Below, one piece after another: positions 32,932-46,847 of a stretch of 50,544 nt of DNA; within the stretch, counting starts at the first letter, position 1, and every line of letters starts with the position of its first letter. Source of the DNA: Cytophagales bacterium (GTDB lineage: Bacteria > Bacteroidota > Bacteroidia > Cytophagales > Cyclobacteriaceae); the NCBI GenBank assembly GCA_022360055.1, contig JAKSDO010000227.1, positions 1 to 50,544 of the forward strand, given 5' to 3'. The notes beneath the pieces are model-generated. The model saw nothing but the letters and a program-made list of their open reading frames with translations, searched no databases and was not told where the DNA came from. Both the position numbers and the translations under genes were made by a program.

Positions 32932-35900
32932 TTAAAAAGTGATTTTAGCACCAACTCTGTAAATTTTAGCAAGTGGATAATTACTCCAACTACTTCTCAA
33001 TATACCTCTACTTTGGTTTGCCTCAGGATCTATACCTTCTAAATTGGTCATAGTAAAGAGGTTTTCTCCAGAAACAGAAAACAATATCGATTTGAACAGG
33101 TTGAAATTTTGAAATGATAAATTATAACTCAGGGTAACATTTTTTAGTCGCAGGTACGAAGCATCCTGAATTGTATATGAGCTAATTTTCCTACCACTAC
33201 CAAAGTATATGGAAGAATTTACACCAGAAGGAAACTCAGCATCTGGATTGGTAGGTGTCCAGCGGTCGAAATAATGTTTTGAAAATGAATTGCGCTCGAA
33301 GTTTGTAGGTACAAGAGACTCTACGGCATTGGCATTAAATGTTTCCATACCCTGAACTCCAAGAATGTATATATCCAGTGCAAAGTTTTTATAAAGAAAC
33401 GTATTGTTCATACTATAGGACATGTCTGGTAAAGGAGAACCAAGTATAACACGGTCTTCACTATCAATTTTGTTGTTTCCATCGCGATCAAAAAATATGG
33501 GTTCACCTGGTTTTGCATTGGGTTGAGCCGAGTTAGCAATGTCCTCACCTTCCTGAAAAATACCAGTTACTTTATATCCATAAAAAGAATACATAGCTTC
33601 TCCCTCTCTTACAATAGAAAAATCCGGAATATTTGCAGCAATATCACCCACAATAATATCACCAGTAAAGGGAGGTAATTCCACAACTTCATTTTTTAAA
33701 GTTGAAAGGACAATTGTTGTATTCCATTTAAACTCGCCAACTAGATTACGTGTAGTAATATCAAAATCGATTCCGGAATTCCTCACAGTTCCTAGATTTG
33801 TACGAACCGTTGAAAAGCCTGTCGATTGAGGCACGGGCTTGCTAAACAACTGGTCAATGGTATTCTTTCTGAAATATTCGATACTCCCTGATATCCGATT
33901 ATCAAAGAATCCGAAATCAAGCCCTAAGTTATATTCTTCCGTGGTTTCCCAGGTCAAATCCTGATTAGGTATCCTTGCTGGTTCTGCTCCACTTTGTACC
34001 ACTCCACCTAAAACAGCATTTCCGCCAGCCACATAAGTTGGAATGGTTTCAAAATTACCAATTCCTTCGTTTCCTATTTGTCCATATCCCAAGCGCAGTT
34101 TCAGATCACTAATAAATGGGAGCCCATTCATAAAAGCTTCTTCTGAAACCCTCCAGCCTAAAGCCATCGATGGGAAGTACGCATATTTATTGGTTTCGGA
34201 GAACCTTGAAGTCCCATCCCTCCGGATAGAAGCTGTAAGCAAATATTTATCAAAATAACTGTAGTTTATCCTTCCAATAAATGATTGCAATTGACGAACA
34301 ATCTTTGAGCTACTTACAGTATTTCTTTCAGGATTTCCACTTTGCAATAGATTGGTTCCAGTAACATCAGAAAGAAAACCTACAGCTCCTGATCCGTGAC
34401 TTAGGATCTGAAATCTTTCCCAGGTAGCTCCGGCCAAAATATGAAAGCTATGCTTATTAATCTTTTTTTCATAGTCCAATAGCCCTTCTGCTAACCAATA
34501 CATGTAGTTAGTACTTGAAACATTTGCCCTTCCTCCATTTGATAACCCTACAATAGTAGTTTTGTCGAAATAACTGTCAGAACGTGTATTATTTATATCA
34601 GCACCTAATTTTGCAGTAGCTTTAAGACCATCAATTATTTTCAGTTCACCAAAGGTATTTCCATACATCCGATTATTAATTAATGTATTTTGTCGCCCAT
34701 AAGCAACAGCTACAGGATTATCTAATGTAAGTAGAGGGTTTCTCTCATAGTTCCCATCTTCACCCTTTTCAGCACTGGTTAAAGGATCATACCATATAGC
34801 CATATTTAATGGGTCTCCGTTTTCGTTACCCCCATTACTGGTATTTGGTATTATATCTTTATCATTGTAGATTCCGGCTATGTTAAGACCAAACTTAAAT
34901 CTATCGGTGAGCTGGGTATTCATGTTTAAATGCACAAAATACTTCTTAATACCCGAGCTAACCATAATTCCGTCTTGCCCCAAGTATCCTATGGAGCCAT
35001 AATATGATGATTTTTCATTACCGCTCCGTATTGATAAATGATGATTAGTGGCCCATGCATTTCGCATCAATTCATCTTGCCAATCAGTACCTTCACCTGC
35101 TTGAGCAATTTCTTCATCAGTGTAGGGAGGTGCGTTCCCAAGATCTTGACTGAGATCATTTATCCGTTGCATATATTGGGTTGCATTCAATACATCAAAT
35201 TTATTCAGGGGAGTTTGATAGGCCCAGTAAGTATCATAAGAAATTTCTGGCTCTCCTTTTACACCTTTTTTTGTTGTTATTAAAACAACACCATTAGCAG
35301 CTCTTGTCCCATAAATTGCTGCCGCAGAAGCATCTTTTAATACTTCCACACTTTCAATATCAGAAGGATTAATATCTGAGGTGCTACCACCTGGTAATCC
35401 ATCTATTACCACGAGGGCAGAATTACTACTATTTATTGATCCCGCACCACGAATCCGAATGCTAGTTGCAGCACCTGGCTCAGCATTAGCTTGACTGATG
35501 TAAACACCGGAAGCCTTTCCTTGAATTAAATGCATCGCATCTGTTGCCACAGCTTTAATAAAATCTTCAGACTTTACAGATGCGACCGAACCTGTTACAT
35601 CACTTTTTTTCATTGTACCATAACCAACGACAACGATTTCATCTAGTTTGGTTATATCGGGAGTCAGAACCATGTCTATAACAGTTAAATTACTAACAAC
35701 TACTTCCTCCGTGATATAACCAACCGCACTAAATGCAAGAATTGCATTTTCATCTGGAATAACTAGGGAATAATTACCTTCAACATCAGTTACTGTTCCC
35801 TGCGAAGTGCCCTTAACCATTACATTTACTCCTGGCAGGCCCGATTGGTCTTCTTCCGAAGTCACTTTACCCGTGATCTTGATACCCTCGATTAAAATCT

Positions 35901-36294
35901 CAATTGGTTTTTCCTGACCTTTTGAATCGTTGATCCTTCTTACACCAATACTGTTGTTAATCTGTTGAAATCTCAAATCGTTGTCTTTGGATATTTTAAG
36001 CAGCAATTGCTCGACAGTGACGCTTGATTTCTTGTAGCTTAACCTCTCTTTTAAATAATTCTCGTCTTCAAAAACAGTAAACCGAAAGTCAGTCTTAGCT
36101 TCTACATAATTAAAAACATCTTTCAATGAGGTATTATTGAAATCTACATTTATCGTTACCTCTTTGACACTGCTGATTTGCTGGGCATCAACATTAGTCG
36201 CAAATGTTGTCGTGAGCAATACTAATTGCACCGTGAAGCCTATCAATGAGTATTTAGTCATTAGATAAAGGTGTAGTAACCATTTTTTTTTCAT
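32932..36294 (-). CDS. SusC-like TonB transporter with STN domain
   Basis: About 1120 residues from the ATG at 36294 (MKKKWLLHLYLMTKYSLIG, the usual SusC leader); an ATG four codons upstream is also possible. After the leader come an STN domain (about 46-120), a carboxypeptidase-regulatory-like domain (about 140-210), the TonB box/motif DEIVVVGYGTMKKSD, a plug with SALVVIDGLPGG and EVLKDASAAAIYGTRAANGV, and the barrel. The STN domain contacts FecR in the periplasm, so this transporter also acts as the sensor for the sigma/anti-sigma pair upstream. It imports large oligosaccharides with the SusD partner. Confidence 0.94.
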   Translation of the reverse strand: MKKKWLLHLYLMTKYSLIGFTVQLVLLTTTFATNVDAQQISSVKEVTINVDFNNTSLKDVFNYVEAKTDFRFTVFEDENYLKERLSYKKSSVTVEQLLLKISKDNDLRFQQINNSIGVRRINDSKGQEKPIEILIEGIKITGKVTSEEDQSGLPGVNVMVKGTSQGTVTDVEGNYSLVIPDENAILAFSAVGYITEEVVVSNLTVIDMVLTPDITKLDEIVVVGYGTMKKSDVTGSVASVKSEDFIKAVATDAMHLIQGKASGVYISQANAEPGAATSIRIRGAGSINSSNSALVVIDGLPGGSTSDINPSDIESVEVLKDASAAAIYGTRAANGVVLITTKKGVKGEPEISYDTYWAYQTPLNKFDVLNATQYMQRINDLSQDLGNAPPYTDEEIAQAGEGTDWQDELMRNAWATNHHLSIRSGNEKSSYYGSIGYLGQDGIMVSSGIKKYFVHLNMNTQLTDRFKFGLNIAGIYNDKDIIPNTSNGGNENGDPLNMAIWYDPLTSAEKGEDGNYERNPLLTLDNPVAVAYGRQNTLINNRMYGNTFGELKIIDGLKATAKLGADINNTRSDSYFDKTTIVGLSNGGRANVSSTNYMYWLAEGLLDYEKKINKHSFHILAGATWERFQILSHGSGAVGFLSDVTGTNLLQSGNPERNTVSSSKIVRQLQSFIGRINYSYFDKYLLTASIRRDGTSRFSETNKYAYFPSMALGWRVSEEAFMNGLPFISDLKLRLGYGQIGNEGIGNFETIPTYVAGGNAVLGGVVQSGAEPARIPNQDLTWETTEEYNLGLDFGFFDNRISGSIEYFRKNTIDQLFSKPVPQSTGFSTVRTNLGTVRNSGIDFDITTRNLVGEFKWNTTIVLSTLKNEVVELPPFTGDIIVGDIAANIPDFSIVREGEAMYSFYGYKVTGIFQEGEDIANSAQPNAKPGEPIFFDRDGNNKIDSEDRVILGSPLPDMSYSMNNTFLYKNFALDIYILGVQGMETFNANAVESLVPTNFERNSFSKHYFDRWTPTNPDAEFPSGVNSSIYFGSGRKISSYTIQDASYLRLKNVTLSYNLSFQNFNLFKSILFSVSGENLFTMTNLEGIDPEANQSRGILRSSWSNYPLAKIYRVGAKITF

Positions 36295-36400
36295 AACTTT
36301 AAGCATTAATGTTTATTAAATATTTTAATTAACTGGTTAGACCTGAGAAATCTCCAGTTAGTTTGGTAAGCCGTTGATTGCAGTCTACGGCTTATTTTTT
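36294..36400 (+). ncRNA. Candidate cis-antisense RNA opposite the susC leader
   Basis: On the plus strand TAACTTTA (36294-36301, one base off TAnnTTTG) sits on the susC start codon. The hairpin TAAGCCGT/ACGGCTTA (36367-36394) is followed by TTTTTT, which looks like a plus-strand terminator. A transcript of about 90 bases would be antisense to the susC 5' region. The second SusC locus has the same layout. No TTTG is found at the usual -33 distance. Confidence 0.4.
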
Positions 36401-36419
36401 GTTCCTTACTAAGTCATAT

Positions 36420-37412
36420 TTATTCAAATTTTAGGGTTAAAGTATCGTTTTCTATTTCATATCGAAAATCCTTTTGAAACTGTAGATCGAGTAAGATATT
36501 TTCGAGTGTTTCTCTCCTATACTGAGCAGTTAATTTCCAATCATGGGGCTCTTTGCCATCGATCAATACGGATACGTCATACCACAATTCCACCTTCTTC
36601 TTAAAATCTTCAAACGAAGCCGCATTGAAAATCAAGATTCCATCTTTCCAACCTCCAACGATATCTTTGTCAAAGGTTGTTTTTTCAAAAACCTTATTCC
36701 CCGAATTTACCATCCCTAATTCCCCCTGAGCAAGTAACATCTGTGTTCCAGATGTATGCTCTATTACCTTCACTTTTCCGTCGAAAAGTGCAATCTTGTC
36801 TGTTTCATCATATTGTGTATTTATATTAAAGGAAGTTCCCAGGGCGGTAGTCGAACTCATTGCCGTAATTACGGTAAAGGGTCGATTGTGATCATGTGCT
36901 ACCTCAAAAAATGCCTCACCCTCTAAATATATAATTCTGCTGGTATCTGAAAAATTTTTATTATATCGGATTTCAGAACCTGAATTAAGATAGATGATGG
37001 AACCTTCTGCCAAAACAAGTTTTATTTTTTCTCCTGCAGGACTAAATTTTGTAACCAGCTCTATTTCACCGCCATTCAAATTTTCCTGTCTGTGTAACTC
37101 CCTGGTCACTAAAAATCCTGCAACTAAGAAAATTACAATTACGGCGGCAACTCGATATATCCAGACCGGAGCACGATTAATGGATCTCTGATTGCCATTC
37201 ACACCTTTCGACCATATTTCATCAATTAATGAATCTGAATTTACTAGCTCTTGTTCTTGAGATCTCTCCTTCCAAATACTTTTCAGTTTCTTAAAAATGG
37301 TAGCATTGAATTCAGATTTATTGACCCAAGCGATTAGTTCTTTTTCTTCGTCTTCAGAAATCGACTTTGTGAAGAACTTGACTAGAAGTGTGTTTAGGCC
37401 TTTTTCTTTCAT
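36420..37412 (-). CDS. FecR-family anti-sigma factor
   Basis: 330 residues. An N-terminal cytoplasmic region (about 1-82) with LIAWVNKSEFNATIF and a helical sigma-binding part, one transmembrane helix (VAAVIVIFLVAGFLV, about 88-103), the FecR domain (about 130-225: GEKIKLVLAEGSIIYLNSGS, EGEAFFEVAHD, TALGTSFNIN) and a C-terminal DUF4974-like STN-interacting domain to residue 330. It holds the ECF sigma factor at the membrane until SusC signals. The 366-base gap to the sigma gene means the two may have separate promoters. Confidence 0.93.
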   Translation of the reverse strand: MKEKGLNTLLVKFFTKSISEDEEKELIAWVNKSEFNATIFKKLKSIWKERSQEQELVNSDSLIDEIWSKGVNGNQRSINRAPVWIYRVAAVIVIFLVAGFLVTRELHRQENLNGGEIELVTKFSPAGEKIKLVLAEGSIIYLNSGSEIRYNKNFSDTSRIIYLEGEAFFEVAHDHNRPFTVITAMSSTTALGTSFNINTQYDETDKIALFDGKVKVIEHTSGTQMLLAQGELGMVNSGNKVFEKTTFDKDIVGGWKDGILIFNAASFEDFKKKVELWYDVSVLIDGKEPHDWKLTAQYRRETLENILLDLQFQKDFRYEIENDTLTLKFE

Positions 37413-37778
37413 TTATGTCTAGGGCATTTATTATAAAGACCGGACTCAAAACAAAAGGGCGTAATGGACTTCGCAATTTCTTTTATTATTTTCAGTTGTA
37501 CCCAAATAATTTTTGAAATGACTAAAAAACTGGCATTAGCGTTATTCAGATAAATATTTTTTCGAACCCCAGGGCAACCCCTCGATCACCAAAAGGGAAA
37601 GTCTAGAACGCTGATCTCTTTAAGTATTTAAAGCCTGACTTTCAGCCGACAGGCGTGTGTGTAGGTGGATATCCTTAACTTAAGGGCAATTTAGGGGACT
37701 TTTATTACCCTCCTTCAGGGGGTGAGGTTAACTATAAGTTTGAAATGGCTGATCAATTTTGATAGGTGATAGATCAAT
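37413..37778. other. Spacer between sigma and FecR genes
   Basis: No coding frame of note. It contains GCCTG/CAGGC arms at 37633-37654 and an ACCCTC...GGGGGT hairpin near 37708-37724. Unusually long for a sigma/FecR pair (the second pair is separated by 72 bases), so a fecR promoter or a leader may lie here. Confidence 0.4.
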
Positions 37779-38393
37779 TTATAGTAGCATCCACAAATTG
37801 ATTTTTCTGATATTGATGACCGGTGTTTTGGTTTTATTATCGCTATAGTAAGACTCCACCTCATTTCTAAGATCCCGCATCGCCAACTCGAGGTGCTTCT
37901 TCACAGTTTTCTCCGTAATATCTAGTAACTCGGCTACCTGTTTGATTCTTAATCCCTCATCTTTCGTGAGCAGATAAACCATTTTTCTTTTTGGAGGTAA
38001 GCGCTCAACGAAATCAGTTACTATTTCCCTCAATTCCTTTGAAAGCACTTTTTCAAAGGGTTCAACATAATTATCTGTAAGAAAATCCTCTGGTATATCA
38101 TCTAAATCCACTGGTGGTTTCTGTGCGTACTTTTTCAGAATGTGTAATGACTGATTCCTGACGGCTGTAAATAAATAGCCACTAAAATTGTTTATCTCAG
38201 GAAGTTTATCACGCTGCTTCAGCAGTTTTATCAAGACCTCTGAAACGACATCTTCCGCATCGGCATATCTATTAACAAATAGTAATGCAAACCTTATCAT
38301 CCGTGGATGATAGACCTTAAAAAACTTCTCAAAGGCCCTTTTATTATCATTGGCAATTCCAACCAATAATTGTTTTATAGTTTCAGTATCCAT
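37779..38393 (-). CDS. ECF RNA polymerase sigma factor
   Basis: 204 residues. Sigma region 2 (FFKVYHPRMIRFALLFVNRYADAEDVVSEVLIKLL) and region 4 (LPPKRKMVYLLTKDEGLRIKQVAELLDITEKTVKKHLELAM) are complete, as in the FecR-partnered ECF group of Bacteroidota. It should drive the susCD operon and possibly its own gene. First gene of the leftward utilisation locus. A C-terminal extension of about 25 residues (DNKTKTPVINIRKINLWMLL) goes beyond region 4. Confidence 0.93.
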   Translation of the reverse strand: MDTETIKQLLVGIANDNKRAFEKFFKVYHPRMIRFALLFVNRYADAEDVVSEVLIKLLKQRDKLPEINNFSGYLFTAVRNQSLHILKKYAQKPPVDLDDIPEDFLTDNYVEPFEKVLSKELREIVTDFVERLPPKRKMVYLLTKDEGLRIKQVAELLDITEKTVKKHLELAMRDLRNEVESYYSDNKTKTPVINIRKINLWMLL

Positions 38394-38772: not shown

Positions 38773-38803
38773 TTTGAATAGTTAGGAATCCTTACTATAT
38801 TTG
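38773..38803 (+). promoter_or_regulatory. Promoter of the thioredoxin-fold/MarR cluster with operator 1
   Basis: TTTG (38773-38776), exactly 19 bases, then TATATTTG (38796-38803): a full match to the Bacteroidota housekeeping promoter. The spacer contains GTTAGGAATCCTTAC (38781-38795), a palindrome with 6 of 7 pairs around a central A. A repressor bound there would block the polymerase. Related palindromes lie at 39095-39109 and 39895-39909. Confidence 0.8.
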
Positions 38804-38843
38804 TATTGACAATAATGTCTAACAACGCTTAAAAATTTAAAAA

Positions 38844-39077
38844 ATGGCAAAATCAATTTTCTACCATGCAGGATGTCCAGTATGTGTGAGTGCAGAGCAA
38901 GACATCGTTAATCTCATTGGTGCTGACAATGTTGACATCGTTCACATAGGCGAAGACCGCAACCGAATTAAAGAAGCAGAAAATGCAGGTGTAAAATCTG
39001 TTCCCGCTTTGTTAACACCAAACGGAAATGTATTGCACATCAATTTTGGTGCGTCTATGACCGACGTAAAGGGCTAA
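38844..39077 (+). CDS. Minimal thioredoxin-fold protein with CPVC
   Basis: 77 residues. SIFYHAGCPVCVSAEQDIV carries a CPVC redox motif (C11, C14) at the end of the first strand, and KSVPALL provides the cis-proline. This is close to the smallest possible thioredoxin/glutaredoxin core and has no signal peptide, so it is cytoplasmic. It is the first gene behind a promoter with a MarR-type operator. The role is probably thiol exchange or redox relay; the partner is unknown. The next gene in the cluster encodes an exported CDKC protein. Confidence 0.8.
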   Translation: MAKSIFYHAGCPVCVSAEQDIVNLIGADNVDIVHIGEDRNRIKEAENAGVKSVPALLTPNGNVLHINFGASMTDVKG

Positions 39078-39094
39078 AAAATTTCCCCTTAACC

Positions 39095-39127
39095 GTTAGG
39101 AGTCCTAATTTATTTTAGGGCTCCTAG
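39095..39127. promoter_or_regulatory. Operator 2 and tandem half-copy, also a hairpin
   Basis: TTAGGAGTCCTAA (39096-39108) is a perfect palindrome. It is followed 19 bp on by TTTAGGGCTCCTAG (39114-39127), an imperfect copy. The two also pair with each other across TTTATTT, and GTTTAGTTTT follows, so this site could also end transcription of the first gene. Operator or terminator cannot be separated by eye. Confidence 0.65.
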
Positions 39128-39155
39128 TTTAGTTTTAACCATTAAAATTCAAAAA

Positions 39156-39875
39156 ATGAAACAATTGTTACTTCTTCTCGGACTTTCGCTTTTCGCAGTT
39201 CAAAGTTATGCTTGCGACAAATGCGGAAACTACAACAATGACGATTTCCAAATTAAAAGTGTAAGCGTAAAGCATTTACCTGAAATTGGAGCAACCATTT
39301 GGGAAATAACCGTAAAAGGAACAGCGGGAAAAACAATGCCAACACGTGCAGGTCAACTTAATGGAGCACCTGTATTGGGATATGTATTCCCAACTACTTT
39401 GAAACCAACTGATGTGGGATTTGGCTATACTGATGGCATAGTGGCTCTTGCCTTGACTTCACATCCTGATTTTGATGACACACCACTTTGGGATGAAAAT
39501 TCAGACCGCAATTTTGCCAATGACGGTATTATTTGGCATCCGCATTGGGTAGTCTTAACCGAAGATAAACGTGTGGAAGGTGGTTTGGCAGTAAAACAAT
39601 TTAATTCAAAAGACACGAGTGTGGTTTTACCCCCAACCAACCCAGGAATGCCTATGTATATGGATTCACCAGGATTTCAAGTCATCACTAAAGGAATTAC
39701 TATAAGAGTGGTTGTTCCTGATTATCGAATGAACAACAAAACGAATTTTTCTTATGACGGTGTAGCGGCTTACATGCAAGTAAACACAGAAGATAAGCAA
39801 AAACCCATGCTTGGTGTTTACAAAGTGTATTCAATTGCAAGTGGCGATCTATCTCTGCCTTACAAGGTAAAGTAA
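39156..39875 (+). CDS. Exported protein with N-terminal CDKC, unknown function
   Basis: 239 residues. Signal peptide 1-19 (cut after SYA), so the mature protein begins with CDKCGNYNNDD. The rest is beta-rich, with FPTTLKPTDVGFGYTDGIVAL, an HPHW motif near residue 129, and several Asp/Asn turns. C20/C23 plus the histidines could bind a metal. I do not recognise the family. It lies between the thioredoxin-fold gene and the MarR gene, each with its own copy of the same palindrome in front, so the three are probably one regulon. Confidence 0.75.
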   Translation: MKQLLLLLGLSLFAVQSYACDKCGNYNNDDFQIKSVSVKHLPEIGATIWEITVKGTAGKTMPTRAGQLNGAPVLGYVFPTTLKPTDVGFGYTDGIVALALTSHPDFDDTPLWDENSDRNFANDGIIWHPHWVVLTEDKRVEGGLAVKQFNSKDTSVVLPPTNPGMPMYMDSPGFQVITKGITIRVVVPDYRMNNKTNFSYDGVAAYMQVNTEDKQKPMLGVYKVYSIASGDLSLPYKVK

Positions 39876-39885
39876 TGCTTATTTG

Positions 39886-39918
39886 CCCTGTAAGGTTAGG
39901 ATTCCTATCTTTACAGGG
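39886..39918. promoter_or_regulatory. Operator 3 nested in a hairpin before the MarR gene
   Basis: GTTAGGATTCCTATC (39895-39909) is centred at 39902. Outside it CCCTGTAA (39886-39893) and TTACAGGG (39911-39918) are perfect inverted arms with the same centre. The whole 33-bp palindrome lies 20 bases before the MarR start codon, as expected for autoregulation. It may also terminate the upstream gene. Confidence 0.7.
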
Positions 39919-39937
39919 TGTTTAAGTTGATATTCCA

Positions 39938-40534
39938 ATGAAGTCTCCTTTTAATCATAAAGAACAAAAAGTTGAGAGCAAAATAGTAGTCGCCTTAGAA
40001 CGAGTTTCGGAAGCGTTCAGGGTTTTGCTTTGGAATGAAAGCAAAGAAAATTCGCTGAGTCCTATTCAAATTCAACTTTTAATCTTTATTCGTTTTCACT
40101 CGTTGGAAAAATGCAAAGTGAGTTATTTGGCAGATGAATTCAACATGACTAAGGCCACCATTAGCGACAGTGTTAGGGTTTTACTTGCAAAAGATTTAGT
40201 TGAAAAAGAAGCCGATCCAATCGACACAAGAAGTTACATGCTTTCACTCACACAAGAAGGAAAAAAAGTAGCTGAAAAAGCATCGTTTTTTGCATCTTCT
40301 ATGGAGCAACCAATCAAAAATTTGACAGAAGAACAGAAAACGATTATGCTTAACGGGTTACTGAAATTAATTCATGACCTAAACAAATCAGGAGTTATTA
40401 CCATTCAACGAATGTGCTTTACCTGCACCTTTTATAAAGCCGAAAAAGGAATACATTATTGCAGTTTACTGAAAACGAGACTTGCCGAATCTGAAATTCG
40501 TGTGGACTGTCCTGAACATGAACTGAATACGTAA
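39938..40534 (+). CDS. MarR-family regulator with four-cysteine tail
   Basis: 198 residues. Winged helix with VSYLADEFNMTKATISDSVRVLLAKDLVEKE (about 61-92) and the wing RSYMLSLTQEGK. After the usual MarR end a tail of about 45 residues carries C160-x2-C163-x11-C175-x15-C191 (MCFTCTFY, HYCSLL, DCPEHE), suited to bind Zn or an iron-sulfur cluster or to sense oxidants. It is the likely owner of the TTAGGAnTCCTAA operators in front of its own gene and the two upstream genes. The signal is unknown. Confidence 0.85.
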   Translation: MKSPFNHKEQKVESKIVVALERVSEAFRVLLWNESKENSLSPIQIQLLIFIRFHSLEKCKVSYLADEFNMTKATISDSVRVLLAKDLVEKEADPIDTRSYMLSLTQEGKKVAEKASFFASSMEQPIKNLTEEQKTIMLNGLLKLIHDLNKSGVITIQRMCFTCTFYKAEKGIHYCSLLKTRLAESEIRVDCPEHELNT

Positions 40535-40725: not shown

Positions 40726-40998
40726 ATGTATTCTTTAGAACCAACTCCATTGGAGGTGAGTAAAGCACTAGCTAAAAGACATAAATCGTTACGAAAAAAA
40801 CTTCGCCTTTCGCAGAAAGAAATGGCTGAACGTTCAGGTGTTTCGTTGGGTAGTCTAAAGCGCTTTGAAAATACCGGCAAAATATCACTGGAAGCGCTTC
40901 TCAAACTTGCTCATTTAAGTGGGCGACTTAAAGATTTTGACTCAATCTTTCAAACTGATGATCTAAGTGAAGTTGAAAAACTTTTCACCAATAAATAG
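40726..40998 (+). CDS. hipB: HipB-like antitoxin, XRE family
   Basis: 90 residues. Helix-turn-helix LRLSQKEMAERSGVSLGSLKRFE in the middle, then a short hydrophobic end (ALLKLAHLSGRLKDFDSIF). The ATG at 40726 gives a normal length. It overlaps the hipA frame by 32 bases. As the partner kinase is truncated, the antitoxin may be an orphan. Confidence 0.85.
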   Translation: MYSLEPTPLEVSKALAKRHKSLRKKLRLSQKEMAERSGVSLGSLKRFENTGKISLEALLKLAHLSGRLKDFDSIFQTDDLSEVEKLFTNK

Positions 40999-41539
40999 AG
41001 ACAGTGAAACCGTAAATAAACTATTTGTTTCTCTGAATATTGAAGGACAAAAGTATCAAGTTGGTGAATTGATACGCTCTGAACAAAAGATATACTTCCG
41101 GTATAACTCAGATTTTTCACCTTTGGATCTGAACTTATCACCTATAAAACTTCCTTTCAATACTGAAATTAACACATGTCAAAAAGAACCTTTTGATGGA
41201 CTGTTTGGAGTTTTTAATGATTCGCTACCCGATGGCTGGGGCCGCTTATTGCTTGACAGAACTTTAAGTTCAAAAGGAATAGGCATTTCGAAAATTACCC
41301 CGCTCGACCGATTGGCCTTTGTTGGTTCAGGAGGAATGGGGTCGCTTATTTACCAGCCTGAATTTGAAGCTGCCACAGAGCTCTCTTCCATGATTGAACT
41401 GGATGAAATTGCCCGGGAGATGACTCGCGTTTTACAAGGAACCAGTTCCGATATTATTGAAGAACTATTTGTACTTGGAGGCTCTTCGGGTGGTGCCAGA
41501 CCGAAAATATTTGTTGCTTACAACCCGGGTATGCGATAG
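40967..41539 (+). pseudogene. hipA: HipA kinase, truncated after the N-terminal half
   Basis: 190 codons from a GTG start. The N-terminal HipA domain (KLFVSLNIEG, GLFGVFNDSLPDGWGRLLLD) and the beginning of the kinase core (GGMGSLIYQPEF, GGSSGGARPKIFV) are present, then the frame stops at NPGMR. Family members have about 400 or more residues, and the catalytic Asp and the DxN metal site are missing. It cannot be an active kinase. The break lies about 155 bases from a probable integrase tail remnant. Confidence 0.87.
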
Positions 41540-41850: not shown

Positions 41851-43518
41851 TCAATAACCAGGATTCTGTAAAAAATCTCCTGGGTTTGAAACCCTATCGA
41901 TCTGATTCTGCGGTATCGGTCTTACCAAATGCATTTCTTTAATATTTGGAGCAGCATCCGGGTTGTACATTTTCACCCTATCGAGTAAGGTTCCAGTCCT
42001 TTTCAGATCGAACCATCGGTGGCCTTCTCCTCCAAGTTCCCTGGCTCTTTCTTCGAGAATAAAGTTCAAATCGATATCTTCCGGTACGACAAGCATTTCG
42101 GCCTCCCTTCCTGGCTTTATAGCTCTTTGACGCAAATTATTTATATGTATGGCCGCATCATCATTCCTGGACTGGTTAAATGCTGCCTCTGCCGCAATCA
42201 AATACATTTCAGCCAACCGAATTACTACAAAATCCCTGCTGCCATCCTGAGCATTTACCGCACTCCTCTTATTATCATAATACTTCTTGTAAAAACTTGG
42301 CCACCTTCTCCGGCTGTCTCCTCCAATCTGCCAGGGGTCCGTTTGATTTGTCACATCCTCTCCATTATAGTCAATATACCAATAAGGTGCAGATTCCTGG
42401 ATAGCGTCGTCTACCGGATGCATGACAATTTTAATGGCTGTATCGCCCGGGTTCACCTGGTTTCCATTTATAGTAGCCGATTTATTAGCAATCCATACCG
42501 TTTTGAATGAGGCATCAAATCGGGCATCGCTTTCTACATCCCATAAATTAAGGAAGTAGTTTGTAGGCATGAACCGTTGATGTGGCTTGCCATTTTCAAT
42601 ATCCCTGTCCATTGCCGGATTACGGGTATAATCCCAAACAAAGAAGTTGTGACTTTTGTTGCCGTTTCCATTCACCAGGGGGTCGCTGCTGTATTGAACT
42701 GACCAAATCACCTCCGAATTTCGCTGATTCTCCAGATCCCACAATTTGTCCAGATCCTCCAGGGCAAAATTATAGTTGCTCATAACATTATTGGCCAACT
42801 GTTCCGCTTCTCCCCAGTTGCCGAGCGTCAACTGAACCCTTGCCAGGAGGGATTCCGAGGTGGCTTTGTTTGCCCTGCCGTATGCAGTTTCCGAAGGATC
42901 TGGCAAATGTTGTATCGCAAACTTTAAATCAGGAACAATTCCATCATCATAAATTGTTTTTACCGAGGTGCGATAAGCCTCTGTCTCAGCGCCTACAGTC
43001 TCTTCCAAAGTAAAATGCACATCGCCCCATATCTGAACAAGGATAAAATAATAGTGCGCTCTTAGAAATTTTGCTTCGGCAATGGCCAGGTTTTTCTCCT
43101 CATCACTCATATCCGGTACATCCGGGGCACGTCCGATCATCGTATTACATTGGTTAATTCCTTCATAAAACGGATCCCAAATCTGCCTGAAAAAGGAATG
43201 CGTGCCCAGCAGGTTTTGATCATAATTGTTGAAGGAAGGATTGTTTTTATTTCCACCAAATCCATTCGTATTGATGTCTGTTCCAACCACTGTAAGATAA
43301 AATGAACGCTCCTCTCCATAGTAACTTCTTAAAAACGGATAGCATGCTTTTAGCCCATCCTGTATACCCAGTGCTGTTGAATAATAGCTATCTGCAGTTG
43401 CGAGACTTACTGGATCTTCCTCCAAAATATCGTCGCATGAAGTGTAAGTAAAAAACATGATAAATATAGCACCTAGTCTCACGCTCAGATTCCTTATTGA
43501 TTTATATTGATTTTTCAT
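41851..43518 (-). CDS. SusD/RagB-family lipoprotein, second locus
   Basis: 555 residues from the ATG at 43518; a TTG four codons upstream is in frame. Lipobox region YTSC followed by DDILEEDP. Typical core FLRAHYYFILVQIWGDVHFTLEE and the end VVIRLAEMYLIAAEAAFNQ, GEGHRWFDLKRTG and FLQNPGY. It is intact although its SusC partner has a stop codon. No glycan-degrading gene lies next to it, so its substrate cannot be guessed from context. Confidence 0.92.
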   Translation of the reverse strand: MKNQYKSIRNLSVRLGAIFIMFFTYTSCDDILEEDPVSLATADSYYSTALGIQDGLKACYPFLRSYYGEERSFYLTVVGTDINTNGFGGNKNNPSFNNYDQNLLGTHSFFRQIWDPFYEGINQCNTMIGRAPDVPDMSDEEKNLAIAEAKFLRAHYYFILVQIWGDVHFTLEETVGAETEAYRTSVKTIYDDGIVPDLKFAIQHLPDPSETAYGRANKATSESLLARVQLTLGNWGEAEQLANNVMSNYNFALEDLDKLWDLENQRNSEVIWSVQYSSDPLVNGNGNKSHNFFVWDYTRNPAMDRDIENGKPHQRFMPTNYFLNLWDVESDARFDASFKTVWIANKSATINGNQVNPGDTAIKIVMHPVDDAIQESAPYWYIDYNGEDVTNQTDPWQIGGDSRRRWPSFYKKYYDNKRSAVNAQDGSRDFVVIRLAEMYLIAAEAAFNQSRNDDAAIHINNLRQRAIKPGREAEMLVVPEDIDLNFILEERARELGGEGHRWFDLKRTGTLLDRVKMYNPDAAPNIKEMHLVRPIPQNQIDRVSNPGDFLQNPGY

Positions 43519-43532
43519 GATTATTTCCAAGG

Positions 43533-46500
43533 TTAGAATTTAAGATTTATTCCGGCAACCCATGTCGCTGACGAAAATGCCCTTCGAGTCTCCGGATCTA
43601 CGGTGTCGTACTCAGACCATATCACAGGATTAGTTGCCGAGATATACAACCTGCAGCCAGATATAGCATCGGATTTGATGAGGTTCCGGGCAAAGTCATA
43701 TCCCAGGGTGATATTCTTTATTTTGACAAACGATCCGTCAAAATACCTCAGCGCCTAATTGTAGAGAATTCCACCTCCCTGAGTTGGCTTTGGATATTCA
43801 TTACTCGGATTTTCCGGTGTCCAGTAATTGAAATTCATATGTGCAAATCTTCCTTCCCAGTTATTACCACCAAAATTATGGTAATTACTCCTCAGCGATT
43901 GTCCCTGACGCGAATAGATTAACATCGAAAAATCAAAACCTTTGAAGGTAAGCCTATTGGTAATACCGCCTGTCCATGACGGAACGGTCGATCCGATAAT
44001 TGCCCGGTCGTCCGAGTTCAACTGACCATCCGGTTCATTGGTGAGATTTCCCTCCTCATCCCTTCCATTGACATCCTTAATTTTTATTTGTCCGGGTAAT
44101 TGGCCATGAGATTCCGCTTCATCAGTTTCTTCCGTCTGCCAGATCCCGTCAAAAACAAAATCATAATATGTATTTATGGGATGACCTATAAACCAGCCAT
44201 TACCAATATCGTCATTCGTCCCGTTGAAAAGCTCCACAATTTCTTCGTTGTTGGAAAACACATTCATATCGATATCCCAGCTAAACCCGTTGCTGCTGCT
44301 AATTATATTTGCCGAAAGAGTAAGTTCCCATCCTCGATTTCGTGTTGAACCGACATTTTCTATCACACTTTCAAAACCGGAAGTTCGAGGCAACAACCTT
44401 TCAAGGAGTAAGTCTTCTGTCTGAGTATCGTAAAATTCAATTGTTCCCGAAATACGGTCCTCCCAAAATCCAAAATCCAATCCGATATTTAACGTAGTTG
44501 ATATTTCCCAGGACAGTTCCGGGTTAGCTATACCATTTTGCCCATAACCATAGGCAGAATCATCTCCAAAATTATACGCTGACCTGCCCAGTCCGCCTTG
44601 GGTCTGATAAGGAGAGATGGCCGTATTTCCCACAGAACCATATCCCGCTCTCAGCTTTAGAAAAGTCAGCACATTACTTTGCAGGAAACTTTCCCCGGAT
44701 AATATCCAGGCCACAGAGACGGCGGGGAAAAACGCCCATTTGTTTCCTTCTGCAAGCCGCGAAGATCCGTCAGATCTACCTGAAGCGGTGAGCAAGTATC
44801 GATCGTTAAATTTATAATTGATCCTTGCCATGTAAGACAGCAATCCCCATTCGGTCAAACCACTACTTATCCCGGTAATGGTTTCGGCAGTACCCAGAGC
44901 GTAAAACGTAGATCGGGTAATTGGAATTCCCTGTGCGGAAAGGGATGAAGATTCTACCCTGCTGGTTTGAGCGCTAAATAGACCTACCAGATTTAAATCG
45001 TGTTCGCCAAAGGATTTATCGTATGAAAGGATATTCTCAATGGTATAAGAAAAGTCATTCAGGTTATCCACGGTTCCATTTGGCGTGTCTCCTACAAAAT
45101 CACCTTCAAACCGGCCTCTCCTGGAATACCGAATATCCGTGCCAAAATTTAACCGGTACATAAGATCTTTTGTAATATCAAACTCACCAAACAGATTGGA
45201 GAACAAACGAAAACCCTTGGTCTCATCTACGTGTTGATTCGGAGAAAAATTTGTTAAAGGCGAAGTCACTAAAAATTCATCGGGATTTGGGAATGGTATG
45301 ATATTTCCATCTTCATCGTAGGCTGCCACCGGTGGGGCATACCTTAGAGCAGACCAGGTCGGATCATCTGCATCCATACGGTTTCTTAAATCAGTAGAGG
45401 CTGTTAAGCTCAGGCCAACCCTTATTTTGCCACTCAAGGTAGCATCAAGGTTCGTCCGGATCGAATATCGTTCATAATCGGTCTTTTTCAACACACCGTC
45501 CTCTTTGTAGTAGCTGCCCGAAATAAAATAATTGATGTTTTCTCCTCCACCGCTGGCCGACAATTGATGTTCTGTCTGAAAGCCATCTCGATACGTTTCA
45601 TCAATCCAGTCGGTCTCAACACCATTTTGGTAGTTTTCATACAATCCACCGAGTATAACCTCATCCTGGCTGTTATCATTTTTTGCCAGTCCGTTGGCTA
45701 CCCTTCTATACTCCACAAACTGCTGACTATTCATTTTATTAAAATCGGCAATTTGCTTTTTCACTCCGGCATATCCTGAATAACTCATTTGAGCTTTTCC
45801 CTTCTTTCCTCTTTTGGTCGTAATTAGGATGACCCCATTTGCGCCCCGTGATCCATAGATGGCGACTGCGCTGGCATCTTTTAATACCTCCATAGAGACA
45901 ATATCAGCCGGATTAAAATCCTCAATCCCCTGCGTTGTCGGTATCCCGTCGACTACATACAACGGATTATTGGTTGCATTGATGGACCGATTCCCTCTTA
46001 CCCGAATCGTCTTGCTCGAACCGGGAGAACCATTACCTGCAACTATGTCGACGCCTGCCAGTCTTCCCTGGGCCTGATCCAGCACATCATAGGTCGGAAC
46101 GGTATTTAAATCTTCCCCGCTGACAGAAGATATTGCCCCTGTAAGATCGCTTTTCTTTTGTGTTCCGTATCCAACAACCACTATTTCATCCAGGGCTGTG
46201 ATGTCAGGCACCATGGAAACGTCGATAACGGTCTGGGCACTTACTGTAATTTCCTCTTCAACATAACCCACTGAGCTAAAAACCAATACGGATTCTTCTC
46301 CCGGTACCTCAAGCGAATAGTTGCCCTGTATATCCGTAACCGTACCCTGTGAAGTTCTTTTGACTATGACATTGACTCCGGGAAGGCCCTGGTCATCTTC
46401 CGAGGAGGTGACTTTCCCTGTGATCGTGATCCCCTGAATTACAATTTCCAGGCGTTCTTCTTTAGGATACGATCTATCCTCAATTCTCTTTACTGTGATG

Positions 46501-46847
46501 TTCTCATTCATTTGCTTAAATGCAACGCCCAAATTCTTAGAGATTTCCATCAACAAATCTGCTACTTTGATCTTTTGTTTTTTTAGATCAAATCGGTAGG
46601 CTGAACCCAGGTCCTTTTTGTGAAACACGAAATTGTAATCGGTCAAATGCTCAATTGTACCAAAGACATCTGGCAAGGGGGCGTTTTGAAACTCAACTTC
46701 AATATATACTTCTTTTACACTTTTAATTTGAGATTGTGCATTCGAGTCAGAAGCCACAACAAAATTAAAAACGATGGTTTGAAATAATATTCCAATTAGC
46801 GTGCAATTAGACATAAATATTATCGTCCGTAATAGTTTATTTTTCAT
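43533..46847 (-). pseudogene. SusC-like TonB transporter with in-frame amber stop
   Basis: 1030 residues are encoded up to TAG at 43755-43757 (GGGILYN-stop). The same frame then continues for 73 residues with the standard SusC end (ALRYFDGSFVKIKNITLGYDF, then TWVAGINLKF) to TAA at 43533-43535. One nonsense change therefore removes the last barrel strands and the C-terminal phenylalanine needed for outer-membrane assembly. The rest is normal: STN domain about 45-120, carboxypeptidase-regulatory-like domain, DEIVVVGYGTQKKSD and NPLYVVDGIPTTQ. Either a recent inactivation or a base error. Confidence 0.9.

Follow-up and report, generated by a model that had tools for sequence, protein, structure and literature searches.

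A cassette of three consecutive plus-strand open reading frames (ORFs), encoding proteins of 77, 239 and 198 amino acids (aa), lies between positions 38,773 and 40,534 of a 50,544-nucleotide stretch of DNA from a Cytophagales bacterium (assembly GCA_022360055.1, contig JAKSDO010000227.1), and this whole stretch is referred to here as the window. The products are a small thioredoxin-like protein, an exported protein (the CDKC protein) and a MarR-family regulator with four cysteines in its C-terminal tail (Table 1). Three palindromes start at 38781 (GTTAGGAATCCTTAC), 39096 (TTAGGAGTCCTAA) and 39895 (GTTAGGATTCCTATC), one ahead of each gene, and are called sites 1, 2 and 3 below. A sequence-only reading of this DNA had proposed that they form a shared operator, that the regulator senses metal or redox state through its cysteines and that the regulon serves a thiol relay spanning the cytoplasm and periplasm. 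The palindromes were found where that reading had placed them, the first within a 19-base promoter spacer and the third centred in a 33-base-pair (bp) dyad. We consider here how closely this operator is tied to its regulator and what the regulator may sense.

Table 1. Features of the cassette and its intergenic regions (positions in the window)
Feature	Position	Strand	Basis or comment
Thioredoxin promoter: TTG 38774-38776, 19-base spacer, -7 box TATATTTG at 38796-38803	38774..38803	+	Sequence reading
Operator 1, TTAGGAATCCTTA, within promoter spacer	38782..38794	.	Exact pattern confined to this locus genome-wide
Stem-loop GACA-ATAA-TGTC, 4 bp, start of predicted thioredoxin mRNA leader	38808..38819	+	84.3% of cells paired
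Thioredoxin-like protein, 77 aa, CPVC motif	38844..39077	+	26-sequence profile matches PDB 2k8s, E 1.6e-31
Intergenic 14-pair hairpin following gene 1, with a T-rich tail; palindrome 2 (39096-39108) forms its left arm	39095..39128	+	Terminator-like in scan; RNA fold z -4.17
Exported CDKC protein, 239 aa, ACDKC after signal-like start	39156..39875	+	Family not assigned; found in 33/93 distinct loci
MarR promoter: TTG 39883-39885, 20-base spacer, TATCTTTA at 39906-39913	39883..39913	+	DUF2024 promoters in relatives share the geometry
Dyad, 33 bp, a terminator-like hairpin that encloses operator 3 (39896-39908)	39886..39918	.	Arm covariation; fold z -5.77
MarR-family regulator, 198 aa, C-terminal C160xxC163, C175, C191	39938..40534	+	MarR_2 E 6.4e-9, over cut-off

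Relatives of the regulator were collected as the best 80 of 190 loci from one search, 15 strong matches from a set of 145 further genomes and the window itself; removal of three duplicates (L089-L091, copies of L049, L060 and L065; L and G numbers denote our loci and genomes) from these 96 loci left 93 distinct ones. Shared neighbor clusters were named by Pfam from one representative each. Thioredoxin was found in 75 loci, a lower bound because an antisense ORF (cluster 9) hides it in some, followed by DUF2024 (48 loci), the exported protein (33), YggS (22), a gamma-glutamyl cyclotransferase-like (GGACT-like) protein (11), truncated globin (10), protoglobin (6) and RIC (6). The usual gene order is thioredoxin, exported protein, DUF2024, globin or GGACT-like, MarR and YggS, with members variably missing. 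We scanned up to 250 bases upstream for matches of at least 11/13, counting N as a match and using shuffled regions as the control. The operator was present before 69/75 thioredoxin genes (1.7% in shuffles), 24/31 exported-protein genes, 27/49 DUF2024 genes and 4/6 protoglobin genes, as well as before 3/11 globin, 3/11 GGACT-like and 0/22 YggS genes; shuffled upstream regions yielded an operator-grade match in 0.8 to 2.7% of cases. Across the 816,818 bases of these loci, 130 of the 152 sites scoring at least 11/12 lie upstream of a plus-strand cassette gene, and by our reading the other 22 would mostly be minus-strand cassette sites or sites before genes missed by ORF picking. One locus (L045, 3322-4865) carries an inserted pyridoxal-dependent decarboxylase-like gene preceded by the operator TTAGGTTTCCTAA.

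The partnership of operator and regulator was followed in two genome samples which, like the plasmid search described below, were made without a cysteine-tail seed peptide. The first comprised 146 relatives, the window genome included, at a MarR threshold above 150 bits, and the second was a phylum sample of 395 genomes drawn irrespective of the operator, at a threshold of E up to 1e-15. G023 is common to both samples, and there is partial overlap with the 80 loci above; G363 and G311 appear to be the genomes that contain L009 and L010. MarR occurred in 16 and thioredoxin in 15 of the 146 relatives, with both in 12 (p 6e-12); in the phylum sample, MarR occurred in 28 genomes, thioredoxin in 17 (one remote) and both in 12 (p 6e-12). 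In MarR-bearing genomes, a site lay within 200 bases upstream of the thioredoxin gene in 12/12 cases at 11/12 or better in the first sample and in a further 11/11 at 10/12 or better in the second. Thioredoxin genes in genomes without MarR had such a site in 0/7 cases (L148, L154, L155, L176, L181, L183 and L184), the best scoring 9/12 even in the whole 3.2 kb. Two operator-less thioredoxin genes were excluded from these counts, the remote gene of G323 (L185) and a second, shorter copy in G017 (L159) away from MarR. In the phylum sample, 22/29 MarR loci (about 3.6 kb each) contained a site scoring 11/12 or better and 24/29 one scoring 10/12 or better, whereas for weak MarR matches taken as a control (L104-L117) the figures were 0/14 and 1/14. 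Collectively, these comparisons suggest that the operator and its regulon are almost certainly real.

Among the own-genus genomes G001 to G006, a strong MarR match was found in G001 only. The same half-site is changed before thioredoxin and before the next gene in L076, L079, L080 and L085, which belong to one subclade. Residue 78 of the MarR recognition helix is threonine in six loci with a changed half-site (those four, L082 and L086), and we treat this as a lead only because the six form a single subclade. Five of the MarR-less thioredoxin copies (L148, L154, L155, L176 and L184) belong to a different conserved operon, in which they come after a dihydrodipicolinate-synthase-like ORF (by eye) and another conserved ORF.

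Within the source genome (7,547,564 bases, or 7.55 Mb, in 300 contigs), TTAGGANTCCTWA occurs without mismatch only at sites 1 and 2, and site 3 differs from it at one position. Allowing one mismatch gave 18 forward and 19 reverse matches, fewer than the 68 and 77 of a reversed-pattern control; three such sites were inspected, and two lie inside ORFs (L003 and L007) and one between two ORFs (L006). The operator and -7 box taken as a single pattern are unique genome-wide at zero mismatches, the next best having two. We rejected a distal regulon: the exact palindrome in the genomes of 29 relatives gave 17 sites in 13 genomes against about 25 for the reversed control, and 13 of the 17 fall, by coordinates, in cassette loci. 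The four others were taken as chance, namely L129 and L134, which fall within ORFs (985 and 918 aa), L132, just after an ORF end, and L131. In L131, whose genome has the cassette elsewhere, a response-regulator-like ORF begins about 77 bases after the perfect operator at 1501-1513.

The same regulator was found outside the Bacteroidota. The plasmid search with MarR gave matches in 58 records, none of which reached 60% identity; Thermus accounted for 23. The Thermus proteins are about 30% identical to the window protein and have the same four-cysteine tail. In five of the six Thermus records opened, MarR directly follows a P460-family gene, and the operator lies 11 or 82 bases upstream of the latter, scoring 12/12 in L223, L224, L231 and L233 and 11/12 in HB27 (L230); the sixth record, L232, which has a shorter annotated MarR, showed no P460 gene and no operator in 8.4 kb. 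The Thermus operator stands just after TTAATAT, which we read as a -10-like sequence. Genes for cytochrome c, a radical-SAM protein and an annotated "nitrite reductase"/cytochrome D1 run convergent to MarR in L224, L231, L232 and L233, and the L231 protein matches Cytochrom_D1 (E 1.2e-110). Ensifer and Shinella carry ATAGGANTCCTAT at the start of MarR, as ATAGGATTCCTAT inside the opening codons of the longest ORF for MarR in Ensifer and as ATAGGACTCCTAT just before MarR in Shinella, where an exported-protein homologue follows. Each of the Thermus and rhizobial loci has one good 13-bp site, the next best scoring at most 9/12. On a Spirosoma plasmid, a perfect operator stands about 200 bases upstream of DUF2024, after which come an exported-protein gene, another ORF and MarR. 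Enterobacter (56 records) and Citrobacter plasmids (L228, 4001-4231) carry a relative of the mini-thioredoxin at 61% identity, and in the opened Citrobacter stretch it lies beside an annotated transcriptional regulator.

The position of the operator relative to promoter elements was also conserved. The arrangement of a TTG and a -7 box is that of a Bacteroidetes-type promoter, and this promoter type and the relatives would place the source genome in the Bacteroidota. Among thioredoxin sites, TAnnTTTG stands at +14 from the motif start in 47/57, and in 54/57 if one mismatch is allowed. Among DUF2024 sites in relatives, TTG stands at -13 in 20/24 and TAnnTTTG at +10 in 15/24 (23/24 with at most one mismatch), and the corresponding figures for the MarR sites are 6/15 and 12/15. 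In the window, sites 1 and 3 lie inside promoter spacers, as expected of a MarR-type palindromic operator over a target promoter, which is often that of the regulator itself. Given that the operator sits between TTG and the -7 box at these sites, and after the -10-like sequence in Thermus, positions typical of repression, MarR is very probably a repressor of the cassette.

The regulator passes the cut-offs of two MarR family models (PF12802, 36.3 bits against 27; PF01047, 25 against 24.6). None of the Pfam or NCBIfam matches listed reaches beyond residue 148, and the Rrf2 (NsrR family) model was not among the 11 Pfam families matched to E 1. The OhrR model NF052638, Vibrio-type by its name, gave 23.3 bits against a cut-off of 200, and the AdcR model NF038251 likewise fell short of its cut-off (see below). 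Cysteines C160, C163, C175 and C191 are present in 93/93 aligned MarR sequences, window included (33 of the 93 were left out of one alignment). The four cysteines also occur in every MarR locus of the phylum sample, 29 with the window (26 by pattern and three by eye), in six Thermus tails and, by eye, in Ensifer and Shinella. This part of the sequence-only proposal, a four-cysteine (Cys4) metal- or redox-responsive tail, is borne out as to the tail, while the partner genes described next suggest NO (nitric oxide) or nitrogen species over general thiol redox. The tail would, we judge by a narrow preference, hold an iron-sulfur cluster.

Several of the partner genes encode proteins associated with nitrogen oxides. 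Truncated globin lies directly before MarR in six loci (L010, L014, L039, L046, L059 and L076), and among PDB entries it is closest to the group III globin 2ig3 (E 7e-16); protoglobin is nearest to 2veb (E 1.4e-71). A cytochrome P460-family gene with an operator of 11-12/12 was found in L205, L210 and L211, and RIC lies near the cassette in six loci. TM_HPP may be linked to nitrite transport, and one locus has a TM_HPP gene with the operator. The nearest PDB entry to the L205 P460-family protein, 6hih, is the cytochrome c'-beta of M. capsulatus (PMC11928373, in part). In the accessible portions of PMC11928373 and PMC6427953, an NO-binding role is proposed for cytochrome c'-beta, and the former reports solved NO complexes of P460-family cytochromes. 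DUF2024 copies away from MarR adjoin a globin in L181 (by Pfam) and in L166 and L168 (by eye); L168 also has RIC, no operator was found with these copies, and the genome of L168 (G052) carries MarR elsewhere. Small conserved ORFs precede the globin in L181 (2258-2921), L166 and L168, and the two in L181 match no Pfam family. The thaumarchaeal genomes with DUF2024 are those of ammonia oxidizers. The part of PMC6393860 available to us records DUF2024, as a metal-binding protein, for 29/30 thaumarchaeal genomes. Since the partners include globins, protoglobin, P460 with its c'-beta role, RIC, TM_HPP, DUF2024 and the Thermus nitrite reductase, we favor NO or a related nitrogen oxide as the probable signal.

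We therefore propose, with a probability of roughly 0.62, that MarR is an autoregulated repressor whose Cys4 tail, probably binding an iron-sulfur cluster, senses nitric oxide. A MarR dimer would repress via TTAGGANTCCTAA; at sites 1 and 3 it would cover the spacer between the promoter elements and block RNA polymerase at the thioredoxin gene and at its own gene. NO or a close nitrogen oxide would destroy or nitrosylate the cluster held by the tail, DNA binding would be lost, and the genes would be expressed. The thioredoxin-like protein could then handle nitrosylated or oxidized thiols in the cytoplasm, the exported protein would act outside it, and relatives would add globins, protoglobin, cytochrome c'-beta or RIC. 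C11 and C14 of the mini-thioredoxin are invariant in the 26 aligned sequences (49 of the 75 thioredoxins were left out of that alignment), and the PDB entries 2k8s and 2hfq presumably derive from Nitrosomonas europaea. The exported protein matched no Pfam family to E 1, no NCBIfam family over its cut-off and no solved structure to E 1. Its CxxC is missing in 6/31 aligned sequences (L021, L048, L095, L097, L098 and L102; the partial proteins of L092 and L103 were left out) and in the Shinella homologue, so the thiol relay across the membrane is unsupported.

Several observations weigh against this proposal. The operator stands immediately upstream of MarR in only 17/93 genes; by our reading, most of the remaining MarR genes appear to sit downstream in an operon. 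No site of at least 10/12 was found in about 3.6 kb in five of the 29 phylum-sample MarR loci (L195, L200, L204, L209 and L214), and in two of these, L200 and L214, MarR lies beside a protoglobin gene; the regulon nevertheless survives comparison of orthologues for the palindrome, which the sequence-only reading had named as its test. The search that yielded the 80 loci had a cysteine-tail peptide among its six seeds, which favors conserved tails. Two of the six Thermus records (L223 and HB27) showed no nitrite reductase near MarR, and a distant MarR relative in L207 is next to a MerT-type mercury-transport gene. RIC and MarR did not co-occur significantly across the 146 relatives (9/16 against 50/130, p 0.19). 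The window genome gave no RIC match, and the window cassette has no globin, P460 or other heme protein. The NO argument thus rests on the many relatives whose regulons do contain NO-handling genes. The four cysteines can alternatively be read as a zinc site.

This last point leads to the strongest competing explanation, in which the regulon and operator are the same and the cysteine tail either binds zinc or works as a thiol switch, responding to peroxide, hypochlorous acid, persulfide or electrophiles, with globins and P460 as bystanders in general oxidative stress. Zinc could be held by four cysteines with a CxxC, the cassette opens with a thioredoxin gene, some relatives have the GGACT-like gene, and MsrA lies near MarR in four Thermus records. 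We nevertheless consider this explanation rather unlikely: genes for globin, protoglobin, P460 and nitrite reductase are found repeatedly in different phyla, and no peroxidase or catalase was seen among the shared clusters that we identified, most singleton neighbors being unsearched.

Two of the palindromes also belong to predicted RNA hairpins. The gap between genes 1 and 2 folds with z below -3 in 21/33 loci (median -3.8), and several loci (e.g., L024, L063, L069 and L078) have no hairpin. Exported-protein sites of the site 2 type have an exact -7 box in 0/23 loci, window included, and one-mismatch boxes fall at scattered offsets, with at most 6/23 at any one place. Given this, and given that the hairpin is kept though the operator is lost in L048 and L028, site 2 is better read as an RNA hairpin than as an ordinary operator-promoter; it would act mainly as a hairpin after gene 1 that sets read-through into gene 2. 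The earlier idea of a shared operator before all three genes accordingly stands for one operator with a local MarR and a conserved neighborhood, and not for an ordinary promoter at site 2. At site 3, the dyad was compared over 50 sites (48 distinct) picked by operator, TTG and -7 box and never by their arms, with reverse copies of three symmetrical sites excluded. Over its 11 outer pairs, pairing reaches 94.1%, and double-change cells number 69 against a shuffle mean of 19.8 and at most 20 in slid controls; the measure "pairs with change on both sides" was matched by 30/500 shuffles. The arms covary, G-U pairs included, and the core is nearly invariant, suggesting that the arms keep pairing and the core keeps sequence. 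Before a T-rich stretch, the dyad looks like an intrinsic terminator that also houses the operator and the next promoter, a combination that could serve all three functions ahead of the MarR gene. The window dyad, whose T-tail is poor, was not listed by the terminator scan, and the site 2 hairpin was. The leader stem-loop has 28 double-change cells against 8.5 in shuffles, two of five measures being no better than shuffles, and is weak alone in the window (z -1.25). An Rfam search gave sub-threshold microRNA noise only.

From these hairpins it could be argued that the palindromes are intergenic RNA hairpins or terminators rather than operators, sharing their sequence through a duplicated hairpin module. 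Strong folding at sites 2 and 3, covarying arms with G-U pairs and the hairpins of L048 and L028 that lack an operator are all consistent with this. We regard it as very improbable, given that site 1 lies upstream of the -7 box and so outside the transcript from that promoter, that the core is near-invariant where the arms covary, that operator presence tracks MarR and that the Thermus and rhizobial loci have a single good site each. Some MarR proteins activate, and nothing direct points to an activator or dual regulator here, an option that the operator positions within the spacers and after the Thermus -10-like sequence render equally improbable.

The cassette is flanked by two minus-strand SusC-like gene sets (32932-38393 and 41851-46847, by eye). 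Upstream of it lies an ECF sigma factor gene (TIGR02985, over cut-off), and directly downstream (40726-41539) are a HipB-like helix-turn-helix gene and the start of a HipA-like gene (HTH_3, Couple_hipA). In L207 (1489-3321), the MerT-type gene and an ArsR-like ORF (by eye) run divergently from the MarR relative, with a 10/12 operator between them.

In the open-access literature, seen mostly as titles and the beginnings of abstracts, we found no description of this regulator, operator or cassette. We tentatively suggest, at somewhat less than even odds, that a MarR repressor family not yet described, combining a Cys4 iron-sulfur NO sensor with a near-invariant 13-bp operator, exists in Bacteroidota, Deinococcota, Pseudomonadota and metagenome-assembled genomes labelled Acidobacteria, Chlorobi and Ignavibacteria; that DUF2024, the thioredoxin and the CDKC protein are new nitrosative-defense proteins; and that the 33-bp terminator, operator and promoter element is a feature of the Bacteroidota. 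NO sensing has well-studied solutions in NsrR, NorR, NnrR and ArnR. If our proposal is right, a MarR protein with a four-cysteine tail would be an additional one, using one operator from Bacteroidota to Thermus, and would explain the control of the orphan families DUF2024, mini-thioredoxin and exported protein. The laboratory strain Thermus thermophilus HB27 has a copy of the regulator next to a P460-family cytochrome gene. The composite dyad would be a compact regulatory design, in which covariation separates the two layers of arms and core.

Among known systems, NssR is a Crp/Fnr-type regulator, unlike the window MarR. In Campylobacter, as described in part of PMC5577044, NssR/Ctb resembles our regulon in placing a group III truncated globin under nitrosative-stress control, and Ctb was induced, yet conferred no NO protection. 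Cytochromes of the c'-beta/P460 family are under this operator in five Thermus records and three phylum-sample loci, whereas the window cassette has none, and the accessible portions of PMC11928373 and PMC6427953 mention no comparable regulator. The AdcR-type zinc regulators share the MarR fold and give a weak NCBIfam match (29.8 bits), but this is far under the cut-off of 175, and the match (28-116) does not extend to the Cys4 tail. NsrR, in the sources available to us in part, is like the regulator proposed here a small iron-sulfur, NO-responsive repressor with few target genes, but it belongs to the Rrf2 superfamily and uses three cysteines and an aspartate as ligands, whereas the window protein matches MarR models. 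Corynebacterium ArnR, in the part of PMC12343034 available to us, is a MarR/ArsR-like winged helix-turn-helix protein with a [4Fe-4S] cluster whose DNA binding is abolished by NO; it has conserved cysteines towards its C-terminus and controls hmp, a globin-type NO gene. Compared by description, ArnR differs in having three conserved cysteines (179, 193 and 223) rather than the CxxC-C-C pattern, in being found nearly entirely in Actinobacteria and in targeting nar and hmp. By analogy, ArnR is the nearest functional precedent for the regulator proposed here.

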